This document shows, piece by piece, positions 26,595 through 31,637 of a stretch of DNA of 64,000 bases (its first letter is position 1; each line of letters starts with the position of its first letter). The stretch is taken from assembly GCF_013410655.1 (NCBI RefSeq), contig NZ_JACCFP010000001.1, forward strand, positions 2,813,501 to 2,877,500. The letters are read 5' to 3'. This DNA comes from Nocardioides thalensis (GTDB lineage Bacteria; Actinomycetota; Actinomycetes; Propionibacteriales; Nocardioidaceae). Under the pieces are notes generated by a model, which was not told the DNA's origin, did no database searches, and saw only the letters and a program-made list of their open reading frames with translations. A program made the translations under genes and the position numbers.

Positions 26595-29500
26595 CTAGAA
26601 GTCGTACGCCGTCCGCATCCCCGCGAGCCACGAGCTGACCGCGCCGAGCCCCCACGCGTCCGCCTGCGCCGCGGCCGCGTCGGCGTGCGCCGCGGCGTCG
26701 TCCGCCCGCTCCTGTGCCCGTGCGGCGAGCGCCAGGTAGGCGTCGACCGGCGCCATCACGATCGCGCCGCCGACGGTGCAGGGGCGGCCGGCGAAGCCAG
26801 CGAGGTAGCCCTCGGCCCGCGCAGCCAGGGCGGTGTCGCCGAGGTACAGCGCGGCCTCCGCGGCGTGGCTCCAGGCGAGCAGGCTCAGCTGGTTCTCCTC
26901 CTCCGGCGGCCAGCCGAGGTCGTCGAGCACCCGGCGGGCGCCGTCCTGGTCGCCGGACCGCCACCGGTAGACGGCGTCGCTCGTCTGGAACGGCCAGTCG
27001 TGCTTCAGCAGCTGGTCGATCACCGGCAGCGCCTCGGCGGGCCGGTCGCGCCAGTAGGAGCTGACCAGCTGGGTGGCGGCGAACGCCTCGTCGGTCGACT
27101 CGTGGTCCATCCGCACGCCGAGGTCGGCGATCCGCTCGAGCGCCCGGTCGAGGTCGTCGAAGCGGCCGGCGGCCGCGGCCCACACCGCCTCCAGCCCGGT
27201 GAGCATGAGGTCGCCGTACGCGATCCGCAGCCGCTCGACGAGCACCCGGGTGCGGGCGACCTGGGCGGTCATCTCCTCGACGCGGCCGAGGTCACCCAGC
27301 ACCATCGCGCGGAGGACGCCGGACACGACCGCCGACCGCTGGTCGCCGGTGGCCTCGGCGAGCTCGAGCGCATAGCTGCTCCAGGAGAGCCGGTCGGGAG
27401 CGCTGGTCGGGCTCCACATCGAGATGAACGAGAGCTGGTTGGCCGTGATCACCAGCGCCGGGTCGCCGAGCCGCAGTGCCATCGCGCGGCCCTCCTCGGC
27501 GAGAGCGACGGCGTCGTCGGACCGCGCCAGGTCGGTGGCCGGCGACGCGTCGGGATCGGGGATCTCCCCGTCCCCCGAGAGCTCCAGGGCGAGCCCGAGC
27601 AGGGTGCGGCAGCGCAGCTCGCCGTCGCCGGGAGGCAGCCGCTCGAGGCTGCCGCGCATGGCAGCGATGACCAGGCCGTTCTCCTCGAACGCCGGAGCCG
27701 TGCGCCACAGCACGCCGGTGGACGGTGCGAGCGCGGCCCGAGCGACCCGCTCCGGGTCGCGCAGCTCCTTGCCGATCCGGATCGCCTCCTCGACCACCGA
27801 CACCAGGTGCTGGATCCGCACCGCCCACTTGTCGGCCTCCGCGAGCTCCATCAGGACGGCGTAGCGGTCCTCCAGCGTGGCCTCGGGGTCGTGGTCCATG
27901 CTCGCCAGCGCACCGGACAGCAGGTCGGCCGCCTGGCCGTGGTCGTAGAGGCGCGCGGCGACGCCGGCGGCGTCGCGCGCGGCGCGCCAGGCGAGCGCCG
28001 CGTGCGCCGGGCCGGCCTCGAGCCAGTGGTGGGCGGCCTCGGTCTCCCGTCCGACCGCGGTGAGCGCGTCGGCGACGCGCGCGTGCACCCGCGCGACCCG
28101 GCTGGCGCCGACCGCCGCGCGCAGCCGGTCGCGCACGAGGGCGTGGGTGAACAGGTAGTGGTCGACACCGTCCTCCCGCACCAGGCCGGCGGCCACGGCG
28201 GGGTCGACCACGTCGAGCGCGTCGTCCTCGTCGAGACGCGCTGCCCGCGCGAGGGTGGCGAGGTCGAAGCGACGGCCGATGACGGCGGCGGTGCGCAGAG
28301 CGGCGATCGTGTCGTCCGGCAGCCGGCCGATCCGCCGGTCGAGCACGTCGCCGACGGCTGCCGGAAGCACGCCGTGGGCGAGGTCGACGCCACCACCGCG
28401 CTCGGCGGAGAGCCGCGCCAGCTCCACGACGAAGAACGGGTTGCCGTCGGTGCGCGCGACCAGCGCGCGGGTGTCCCCCTCGGGCTCGCGGCCGGACACG
28501 GCCGCGAACACCGTGCGTACGTCGCGCTCGGGCAGACCGTGGAGGTCGACCCGTACGGCGTGCCGGCGGGCGAGAGCCTCCGCGACGTCGGCCAGGGTCC
28601 CGGTCGGGGGCGGGTGGAGCCGCCACGTGCCCGCGACCAGCACGGGCTCGTGAGCCGCCTCGACGAGCAGCCGGAGCACCCGCAGGCTCGCGTGGTCGGC
28701 CCAGTGCAGGTCCTCGAGCAGCAGCACCGTCGGACCCTGCCGCGCGGCGTCGCGGACGACCGAGGTGACCGCCTCCCAGAGCCGGAACCGGCCGTCCTCG
28801 TCGGCGCCACCGGAGCCACCGGGACCACCGGGCCCGCCGGCCGCGTCGACGAGGGTCATCAGGTCGGTGCCGAGCGCGTCGAGCACGGCCTTCCACGGCC
28901 ACAGAGACGGAGCGCCCTCGTCCTGCGAGCACCGGCCCACCAGGACCCGGAAGCCGCGGCGCCGGGCCTGGACGAGCAGCTCGGCGGCGAGCCGGGACTT
29001 CCCGATGCCGGGCTCGCCGGTCAGCGCGGCGAACGACGTGCGGCCGTCGGCCACGTCGTCGAGCGCACCGGTGAGCGCCGCCAGCTCGGCGTCGCGACCG
29101 ATCATCGGCCACGGGGCGACCGGGGCCTCGGCGTCCGGGCGGCGGGGCCGCGGCGGCTCCGACGATGCGGGCTCCGCCACCGGCGCCGGCGGCGCCGTAC
29201 GGACCGGGCCGGAGGCGGGCGCGGCCCACACCAGCCGCTCGTCCTGCCGGAGCACGGCGGCCTGGAGGTCGCGGAGCTCGGCGGAGGGGTCGATACCGAG
29301 CTCCTCGTCGAGCACCCGGCGTACCTGGCCGAGCACGTCGAGGGCGTCGGCCTGGCGGCCCGCGCGGGCGAGCGCGACCGCCCGCAGCGCCCACAGCCGC
29401 TCGCGGAGCGGATGCGCCGACGTGAGCGCCTCGAGGTCCGCCGCGACGGTCGCGTGGTCGCCGAGCGCGAGGCCGGCGGCGGCGCGGTCCTCGAACGCGA

Positions 29501-30041
29501 CCAGCCGCAGGCCCTCCAGCCGGGTGCGCTCGTTGGCCGCGGCGTCGACGTCGCCGAGGTCGGCGTACGGCGTGCCGCGCCAGCTCTCGAGGGCGGCGTC
29601 GATCGTCGCGCGCTGCCTGTCGATCTCGTCCCTGGGCAGCTCGTGGGGTCCCCAGACCGGCAGCGCCTGGAGCGCCTTGTGGGCCCGCGACACCGCCTGC
29701 TCGAACCGGTGCGCGTCCACCTGGTCGTCCGGGACCTTGAGCGCGTAGCCCGGGGCCGCGGTGACCAGGATCGTCGCCGGCGTGCGCGGAGCGCGGTCGG
29801 GCTCGACCACCCGCCGCAGCTGGGAGACGTAGGCCTGGAGCGTGCCCGTGACGCCGGGTGGCGCGTCGTCGCCCCAGAGGTGGTCGATGATCCCGTCGAC
29901 CGACACCGGGCGGCCGCGGGCGAGCACGAGCGACGCCAGCAGCGCGCGCTGCTTGGGAGCGCCCAGGTCCAGAGCCGTCGTATCACGGCGGACCTCGAGC
30001 GCTCCGAGCACAGAGACCTCGAGGTGTGCGGGCGGCGGCAC
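26595..30041 (-). CDS. SARP-type transcriptional activator with AAA-ATPase and TPR-like region
   Basis: A 1148-aa AfsR-like regulator. Residues 1-100 form an OmpR-like winged helix (LEVSVLGALEVRRD, VSQLRRVVEPDR). About 107-268 is the bacterial transcriptional activation domain (BTAD). The ATPase domain has Walker A TGEPGIGKSR at 341-350 and Walker B VLLLEDLHWAD near 443. The remaining 600 residues are helical, TPR-like. A GGPGGPGGSGG linker lies inside the ATPase region. The divergent FAD oxidase gene and four 11-bp-spaced heptamers in between suggest local control and autoregulation. The GTG start fits the winged-helix N-terminus. Confidence 0.9.
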   Translation of the reverse strand: MPPPAHLEVSVLGALEVRRDTTALDLGAPKQRALLASLVLARGRPVSVDGIIDHLWGDDAPPGVTGTLQAYVSQLRRVVEPDRAPRTPATILVTAAPGYALKVPDDQVDAHRFEQAVSRAHKALQALPVWGPHELPRDEIDRQRATIDAALESWRGTPYADLGDVDAAANERTRLEGLRLVAFEDRAAAGLALGDHATVAADLEALTSAHPLRERLWALRAVALARAGRQADALDVLGQVRRVLDEELGIDPSAELRDLQAAVLRQDERLVWAAPASGPVRTAPPAPVAEPASSEPPRPRRPDAEAPVAPWPMIGRDAELAALTGALDDVADGRTSFAALTGEPGIGKSRLAAELLVQARRRGFRVLVGRCSQDEGAPSLWPWKAVLDALGTDLMTLVDAAGGPGGPGGSGGADEDGRFRLWEAVTSVVRDAARQGPTVLLLEDLHWADHASLRVLRLLVEAAHEPVLVAGTWRLHPPPTGTLADVAEALARRHAVRVDLHGLPERDVRTVFAAVSGREPEGDTRALVARTDGNPFFVVELARLSAERGGGVDLAHGVLPAAVGDVLDRRIGRLPDDTIAALRTAAVIGRRFDLATLARAARLDEDDALDVVDPAVAAGLVREDGVDHYLFTHALVRDRLRAAVGASRVARVHARVADALTAVGRETEAAHHWLEAGPAHAALAWRAARDAAGVAARLYDHGQAADLLSGALASMDHDPEATLEDRYAVLMELAEADKWAVRIQHLVSVVEEAIRIGKELRDPERVARAALAPSTGVLWRTAPAFEENGLVIAAMRGSLERLPPGDGELRCRTLLGLALELSGDGEIPDPDASPATDLARSDDAVALAEEGRAMALRLGDPALVITANQLSFISMWSPTSAPDRLSWSSYALELAEATGDQRSAVVSGVLRAMVLGDLGRVEEMTAQVARTRVLVERLRIAYGDLMLTGLEAVWAAAAGRFDDLDRALERIADLGVRMDHESTDEAFAATQLVSSYWRDRPAEALPVIDQLLKHDWPFQTSDAVYRWRSGDQDGARRVLDDLGWPPEEENQLSLLAWSHAAEAALYLGDTALAARAEGYLAGFAGRPCTVGGAIVMAPVDAYLALAARAQERADDAAAHADAAAAQADAWGLGAVSSWLAGMRTAYDF

Positions 30042-30100
30042 GTCCGCAGCATAGGGACGCGCGGGCGCCGTACGGGCCGCTTTGCGTCATTCGCCGACGG

Positions 30101-30140
30101 CCCCAGTCGGGCCCCAAGTGAACCCCAAGTCGGCCCCAAG
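30101..30140. promoter_or_regulatory. Four direct heptamer repeats, 11-bp phasing (SARP operator)
   Basis: CCCCAGT at 30101 and CCCCAAG at 30112, 30123 and 30134 are spaced exactly 11 bp apart, the arrangement bound by SARP activators on one DNA face. On the minus strand the array ends 8 bp before GAATGA, a possible -10 for the SARP gene. On the plus strand it lies about 57 bp before the FAD oxidase ATG. Confidence 0.7.
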
Positions 30141-30197
30141 CGGTCCCGGGCACCTTCGGTCCATCGCACCACCAACCCTCCGACCGAAGGAACCCCG

Positions 30198-31637
30198 ATG
30201 AGCATCGACAACGACCTGGACCTGACCACCGGCACCACCGACCCCCTCGCCGCCGGCCACGCCCTCCGCGGCCTGCTCGGCGACCGTGTCGTCCTCCCCG
30301 GCGACGAGCAGTACGACGCCGCCCGGGTCGCGTGGAACCTCGCCGTCGACCAGCGTCCGGCCGCCGTGGCCGTACCGCGCTCGGCCGCCGAGGTGGCCAC
30401 CATCGTCCGGATGGCGGCGGAGACCGGCCTCCGGGTCGCGCCGCAGAGCACCGGCCACAACGCGGGTCCGCTCGCCGCGCAGGGCCTCGACGACGTCGTG
30501 ATCGTCCGGATGTCCGAGATGACGATGGCGATCGCCGACCCCACCCGCGGGATCGTCCGCGTCGAGGGCGGCACCCTGTGGGAGCCCGCCGTCGACGCCG
30601 CGGCCGCGCACGGGAAGGCGGTGCTGCACGGCTCCTCCCCCGACGTCGGCATCGCCGGCTACTCGCTGGGCGGCGGCATCGGCTGGTACGCCCGCAAGCT
30701 CGGCCTCGCCACCAACAGCCTCACCGCCGTGGAGATCGTCGTCGCCGACGGCACCCTGGTGCGGGCCGACGCCAGCCACAACGCCGAGCTGTTCTGGGCG
30801 CTGCGGGGAGGAGGTGGGAACTTCGGCGTGGTGACCGCGCTCGAGTTCCGGATGTACGACATCCCCACCGCCTACGCCGGGATGATGCTGTGGGGACCCG
30901 AGCACATCGAGAAGGTGCTGCGCGAGTGGGCCGCCTGGGCGCCGGGCGCCCCCGACGAGATCACCACCGCGTTCCGGGTGCTGCGGATGCCGCCGCTGCC
31001 GGAGATCCCCGAGTTCCTCGCCGGCCGGACCGTGGCCGTCATCGACGGCGCCGTGCTCGGCTCCGACGAGGACGGCGCGGAGATCCTCGCCGGCCTGCGT
31101 GCCCTCCGGCCCGAGCTCGACACGTTCGGCCGGGTGCCCGCCAAGAGCCTGGTCCGGCTGCACATGGACCCCGAGGGCGGCATGCCCGGCGTGTCCGACT
31201 CCGCGATGCTCGAGGGCCTGCCCGACGGCGCGATCGACACGTTCCTCCAGCACGCCGGTCCCGGCGTCGAGACGCCGCTCGCGATCGCCGAGCTCCGGCA
31301 GCTCGGCGGCGCGCTGGGTCGCGCGCACGAGGGAGGCGGCGTGTTGTCGAGCCTGGACGCGCAGTTCGGCGCGTTCCAGGCCGGCATGGCCATGACGCCC
31401 GAGATGGGCGCCGCGGTGCACGGCGCGGCCACCGCCCTCACCGGCGCGCTGGCGCCGTACTCCACCGGCGCTGCCTACCTGAACTTCGCCGAGAACCCGA
31501 TCGACGCACGACGGGGCTACCGGCCCGAGGCGTGGCGCCAGCTCGCCGGGGTGCGCTCGGCCGTCGACCCGCACGGGCTGTTCGTCGCCAACCACCGGGT
31601 GCCGCGGCTCTTCGAGGACGGGCAGCCCACGACATGA
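30198..31637 (+). CDS. FAD-linked oxidase (berberine bridge/6-hydroxynicotine oxidase type)
   Basis: A 479-aa protein with a PCMH FAD-binding domain: VAPQSTGHNAG carries the His often covalently linked to FAD, and GIAGYSLGGGIGWYARKLG is the second FAD motif. The C-terminal BBE segment ends with the typical YLNF motif (AAYLNFAEN) and DPHGLFVANHRV. Relatives oxidise alkaloids, sugars or polyketides. The second flavin-linking Cys is not obvious. The ATG follows GAAGGAACCCCG. It is probably the target of the divergent SARP regulator. Confidence 0.87.
   Translation: MSIDNDLDLTTGTTDPLAAGHALRGLLGDRVVLPGDEQYDAARVAWNLAVDQRPAAVAVPRSAAEVATIVRMAAETGLRVAPQSTGHNAGPLAAQGLDDVVIVRMSEMTMAIADPTRGIVRVEGGTLWEPAVDAAAAHGKAVLHGSSPDVGIAGYSLGGGIGWYARKLGLATNSLTAVEIVVADGTLVRADASHNAELFWALRGGGGNFGVVTALEFRMYDIPTAYAGMMLWGPEHIEKVLREWAAWAPGAPDEITTAFRVLRMPPLPEIPEFLAGRTVAVIDGAVLGSDEDGAEILAGLRALRPELDTFGRVPAKSLVRLHMDPEGGMPGVSDSAMLEGLPDGAIDTFLQHAGPGVETPLAIAELRQLGGALGRAHEGGGVLSSLDAQFGAFQAGMAMTPEMGAAVHGAATALTGALAPYSTGAAYLNFAENPIDARRGYRPEAWRQLAGVRSAVDPHGLFVANHRVPRLFEDGQPTT

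Follow-up and report, generated by a model that had tools for sequence, protein, structure and literature searches.

A conserved 11-bp direct-repeat array as the probable operator linking a large SARP regulator to a divergent FAD-dependent oxidase gene in Nocardioides

Introduction

Most of what is known about SARPs concerns the control of antibiotic clusters in Streptomyces. Their operators follow a common rule, in which direct repeats recur every 11 (or 22) bp, the 3' repeat lies 8 bp from the -10 element and the repeats overlap the -35 position (PMC10936776). At afsS, for instance, the repeats bound by AfsR lie at -40 to -30 and -29 to -19 in front of the weak -10 CACTGT, and the AfsR residues that read bases are T88 and R92 (PMC10936776). 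PimR, a large SARP, acts on a divergent target through three heptamers spaced by 11 bp and ending in CAAG or CAGG (PMC3367932); the CGGCAAG heptamers lie clear of the -35 of pimM, the target, which encodes a pathway regulator within an antibiotic cluster (PMC3367932, PMC5930380). Furthermore, SARPs stand together with FAD-dependent oxygenases in the bagremycin and ferroverdin clusters, where BagI/FevR are accompanied by BagG/FevA2 and BagK/FevA1. Here, we describe a divergent pair of a large SARP gene and an FAD-dependent oxidase gene from Nocardioides thalensis, located in a genomic stretch of 64,000 nucleotides (the window) of which a sequence-only reading was available.

Results

The 156-bp intergenic region at 30042-30197 separates the minus-strand SARP gene from the plus-strand oxidase gene; promoter elements and operator units in the following list are predicted, with unit positions numbered relative to the oxidase transcription start.

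26595..30041, minus strand: large SARP regulator (SARP1), GTG at 30041, 1148 aa
30048..30053, minus strand: SARP1 -10 TATGCT, 6 nt before the GTG; predicted leaderless promoter
30101..30111, plus strand: operator unit 4 (extra, most upstream), CCCCAGTCGGG; missing from most orthologues
30112..30122, plus strand: operator unit 3, CCCCAAGTGAA; about -51 to -41
30123..30133, plus strand: operator unit 2, CCCCAAGTCGG; about -40 to -30
30134..30144, plus strand: operator unit 1, CCCCAAGCGGT; about -29 to -19
30151..30156, plus strand: oxidase -10 CACCTT; NANNNT at identical spacing in 30/30 pairs
30163, plus strand: predicted transcription start (A), assigned by position; A in 70% of orthologues
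30186..30192, plus strand: oxidase ribosome-binding site GAAGGAA, recognised by eye
30198..31637, plus strand: FAD-dependent oxidase, EncM / mitomycin radical oxidase-like, ATG at 30198, 479 aa

SARP1 begins with the OmpR-type DNA-binding domain and BTAD that define a SARP (Pfam Trans_reg_C, 41.6 bits, and BTAD, 112.7 bits, both above cut-off), followed by an AAA_16 ATPase at 318-468 and similarity to TOMM kinase/cyclase proteins at 425-701. Domain searches returned no GerE match, and hence no LuxR HTH, in its C-terminal region. Its C-terminal half is of the ATPase/guanylate-cyclase/LAL-like kind without LuxR HTH seen in SARP-LAL regulators of the PimR type, but the CGGCAAG heptamers of these regulators are replaced here by [T/C]CCAAGT. 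Compared with solved chains, the N-terminal 270 aa matched AfsR (E 4e-33) and EmbR (E 4e-38) over residues 6-270, whereas SARP1 falls outside the AfsR equivalog family NCBIfam NF053617, with 179.6 bits against a cut-off of 1430. The oxidase has the fold of EncM and mitomycin radical oxidase, with full-length similarity (residues 28-469) to mitomycin radical oxidase 9r43 (E 1e-61) and to EncM (about 1e-59). By analogy it would oxidise a small molecule, and these relatives make it a reasonable guess, though no more, that the enzyme acts on an aromatic or quinone-like compound by redox chemistry. No cluster was recognised among the flanking genes that were checked, namely those for a methylmalonyl-CoA mutase and an SNF2 helicase and three unmatched ORFs. 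The oxidase frame is open for 1650 codons (26685-31637, plus strand), antisense to the whole SARP gene, which is most likely an effect of high G+C content.

Four heptamers, CCCCAGT at 30101 and CCCCAAG at 30112, 30123 and 30134, follow one another in exact 11-bp steps, just as the sequence-only reading had described them. Two-unit matches with at most one mismatch occurred three times in the window, overlapping one another, against 0.26 expected by chance, and none of 100 shuffles reached this number. The genome scan for phased CCCCAAG-type copies that this reading had suggested was run as a three-unit CCCCAR pattern with at most two mismatches, and the 30101-30140 array was its sole match in the 4.57-Mb Nocardioides genome. 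On a scale that rates three units together with a phased -10, the array attained 23/23, whereas the best of about 350 further window pieces of 360 nt reached 19.

We compared 30 non-redundant divergent SARP-oxidase pairs, 26 from Nocardioides, three from two other genera of the same family and one from another family of the order. Three or more units at 11-bp spacing, some of them degenerate, were found in 30/30 pairs, which are related lineages rather than 30 independent tests, with SARP identities of about 50-63% and no conservation of the DNA between array and SARP gene. Thus, the repeats are kept in orthologous pairs, on which the sequence-only reading had made its proposal depend. The general unit is CTCCAAGTCGG, i.e. 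[T/C]CCAAGT, with A and G invariant at those two positions of its AAG core; the CCCCAAG heptamer put forward as the operator unit is therefore present here but represents a local variant. At close oxidase homologues (50-66% identity) without an adjacent SARP gene, the array was sought and found to be absent (L065-L068, L190, L191, L193-L203). In genome G226 (L041 and L204, the latter on C4), the oxidase gene keeps the box and the SARP1 paralogue SARP2 is present, while SARP1 was found neither at the locus nor, at E<=1e-120, in a search of the genome. The oxidase box may therefore also be read by SARP2 or by another regulator, and SARP1 and SARP2 may share sites. The surroundings of L204 (G226:C4) still include an ORF resembling methylmalonyl-CoA mutase, a gene type that flanks the pair in the window too.

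On the oxidase strand, a NANNNT hexamer (CATGGT/CACGGT type) lies exactly 9 nt past the 8-bp core of the last unit in 30/30 pairs, where its A and T had been given a small weight in choosing the register; a first look, in which unit score was the sole criterion for picking the array, gave the same spacing in all 27 orthologous pairs listed. Beyond the array, this A and T are the only columns invariant in all 30 pairs (100%), and an A stands in 70% of them at 12 nt past the hexamer start, where transcription would be expected to begin. Numbering the hexamer -12 to -7 places the units at -51, -40 and -29. Because the phased NANNNT is conserved on the oxidase strand and the SARP side lacks conservation, the array is, as judged from these alignments, phased for the predicted promoter of the oxidase and not for that of the regulator. 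What comes directly out of the comparison is that the array exists, is conserved, depends on a neighbouring SARP gene and is phased exactly to the putative oxidase -10. A perfect 9-bp inverted repeat, CCTTCGGTC at 30153-30161 and GACCGAAGG at 30182-30190, spans the oxidase -10/start region and the ribosome site and is not obviously retained in orthologues.

Discussion

By its domains and predicted operator layout, SARP1 is a SARP, AfsR-like in promoter geometry and PimR-like in size and layout, and the 11-bp repeats at a set distance from the -10 and overlapping the -35 position recur in 30/30 pairs. With AfsR it shares the order of SARP and nucleotide-binding domains, the register of the repeats relative to the -10 and a suboptimal -10. 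In contrast to AfsR, there are three or four units instead of two and a different heptamer, and the positions of T88 and R92 are occupied in the alignment by A and Q, which fits the different heptamer. As in PimR, a SARP domain at the N-terminus is combined with an ATPase half without LuxR HTH in one large protein, the gene is transcribed divergently from its target, and there are three heptamers with 4-bp spacers whose consensus ends in CAAG; unlike the PimR operator, the [T/C]CCAAGT units overlap the -35 position, and their putative target encodes an oxidase in surroundings where no cluster was recognised. The combination of a SARP with FAD-dependent oxygenases homologous to the oxidase is reminiscent of the BagI/FevR systems, but both proteins studied here score far below the respective family cut-offs and no such cluster was recognised. 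Thus, the arrangement is textbook for SARPs, while the DNA sequence and the target gene are undescribed in the literature searched: a limited screen of matches combining TCCAAG with SARP yielded no description of either, and the combination of SARP, Nocardioides and direct repeats gave no match.

We consider it probable (about 0.86) that the array serves as operator for the large SARP next to it, which would activate an oxidase promoter lacking a good -35. The earlier suggestion of a SARP-type operator has accordingly gained ground, as the array occurs in 30/30 pairs, is absent where the oxidase gene stands alone and shows AfsR-like phasing to the -10. SARP1 would be made from its own array-independent leaderless promoter, and a permissive state of its ATPase/C-terminal sensor half, set by a nucleotide or ligand, would enable it to act. 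Following the AfsR precedent, from which this gating is also taken, SARP protomers would line up next to one another on the direct repeats of 11 bp, at about -51, -40 and -29, and contact sigma region 4 and RNA polymerase, thereby replacing a good -35, so that the oxidase promoter with its suboptimal -10 CACCTT would be activated. The product would be an EncM / mitomycin-radical-oxidase-like flavoenzyme oxidising a small molecule. It is likewise by analogy that we infer binding and activation by SARP1 and their gating through ATP binding to the nucleotide domain.

Several other explanations of the array deserve consideration. Slippage creates short tandem repeats and the window copies are near-identical, as a chance or mutational repeat without function might be; this origin has a negligible probability, as it is refuted by conservation, with units that diverged and yet persisted at fixed phasing in 30 pairs. 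The array might instead serve both genes, with SARP1 also controlling its own promoter by self-activation or self-repression, and indeed the repeats lie upstream of both genes and end 21-22 nt from the SARP -10 in about eight orthologues. We regard such a dual role as unlikely, since the distance from array to SARP -10 ranges from 16 to 95 nt and not in multiples of 11, the interval (4 to 60 nt upstream) carries no conservation, with less than 0.45 bit per position across the 30 pairs, and the orientation of the units is wrong for the known SARP mechanism. The sequence-only reading had proposed self-activation from a minus-strand -10 situated 8 bp beyond the array; this hexamer (GAATGA) can be read there but is not conserved in orthologues. 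What the SARP gene possesses is a predicted leaderless TANNNT of its own, 6-7 nt before the GTG in 29/30 orthologues (TAYGCT in 22) and at a variable distance from the array, whose phased promoter is that of the oxidase. Minus-strand self-activation was thus rejected, as the side of the array facing the SARP gene is not conserved in orthologues.

A further candidate reader of the boxes is a different OmpR-family regulator, such as a PhoP-like response regulator. OmpR-type domains share fold and spacing, PhoP-like regulators also bind 11-bp direct repeats, and at afsS the box of PhoP overlaps that of AfsR (PMC10972967). Moreover, a loose pattern also matches CTCACAG-type 11-bp repeats before protease-like and response-regulator genes (L160, L161, L168, L178); such repeats, which stand directly before a gene of this kind at L170 too, are probably PhoP/OmpR-type boxes rather than SARP boxes. 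Nevertheless, we find it very improbable that such a regulator, and not a SARP, reads the boxes, because the box at the oxidase gene follows the adjacent SARP, the extra boxes elsewhere follow the SARP2 paralogue and the spacing to the -10 is that of SARPs.

If SARP1 acts on the oxidase promoter, the question of additional targets arises, which we approached by pattern searches for the box plus -10 with a reversed pattern as control. The window genome contains one further good box (G000:C1:1440957-1441000, L089:3958; one mismatch, score 21/23), which reads ACCCAAGTCGC GCCCAAGTCGA TGCCAAGGGGA followed by 9 nt and GAGTCT. On its two sides stand genes in tandem for secreted CARDB proteins (CARDB by Pfam), 55% identical to each other, and 31 nt including a ribosome site separate its -10 from the ATG of a gene for a 785-aa secreted CARDB protein (G000:C1:1441035). 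The odds lean slightly towards a small regulon in which SARP1 also activates this gene, as suggested by the phased box at this distance from the ATG and by a weaker box (19) before the orthologue in G143, a genome that also has SARP1; on the other hand, a box is missing before most orthologues from other species, and on our reading of the reversed-pattern control about 0.3 matches per genome with at most one mismatch would arise by chance. The one-enzyme regulon envisaged earlier is therefore nearly right for the window genome, but for this additional box, while other species carry more.

Across the genus, the box plus -10 pattern occurs well above the reversed-pattern control and is concentrated in some genomes, with up to eight extra boxes in other species. 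These precede genes for MMPL transporters, FAD oxidases, hemerythrin-like proteins, secreted proteins of ~220 aa, small membrane proteins and a ~46-aa family, names that, CARDB excepted, derive from reading the sequences by eye and not from family searches. SARP1 as owner of all extra boxes genus-wide was at first supported (2.56 vs 0.43 per genome); the boxes were then largely reassigned to SARP2, because the 13 genomes with SARP1 and SARP2 average 4.5 extra boxes and the 14 with SARP1 only average 0.7 (Mann-Whitney P = 4e-5, a value that ignores genome relatedness; G226 is counted among the former, though only the oxidase and box were found there and not SARP1). The ~46-aa protein (MKTTxxERRxxWRxLSxQDKQxRLxxMRRxHQxQVEFEMLRLQxLR) is encoded directly behind a box of this same SARP type in six or more Nocardioides genomes (L097:3475-, L106:3501-, L113:3580+, L115:3469-, L121:3652+, L124:3411-). 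A different 11-bp array, TCAAAGTGAGCCCAAAGTGAGCCYTAAG, recurs in many Nocardioides genomes (G002:C1:2232443, G013:C1:4201162, G183:C1:1493360 and others).

Conclusions

More tentatively, and with somewhat less than an even chance in our estimate, paralogous large SARPs of Nocardioides and relatives may share one operator not described before (3 x CTCCAAGTCGG + 9 nt + SANNNT) governing a detoxification or envelope regulon outside antibiotic clusters, which in the window genome would be reduced to one or two targets. If true, this regulon would span the EncM-like oxidase, MMPL transporters, hemerythrin-like proteins, the conserved ~46-aa protein and the ~220-aa secreted proteins. At the locus itself, the comparison defines by sequence a putative SARP operator from a genus other than Streptomyces and fixes its putative target, its phasing and its direction. 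The target of the regulator thereby becomes directly testable, and the motif could be used to chart SARP regulons outside antibiotic clusters, while the input signal of SARP1 and the substrate of the oxidase would form a linked pair to be screened together.
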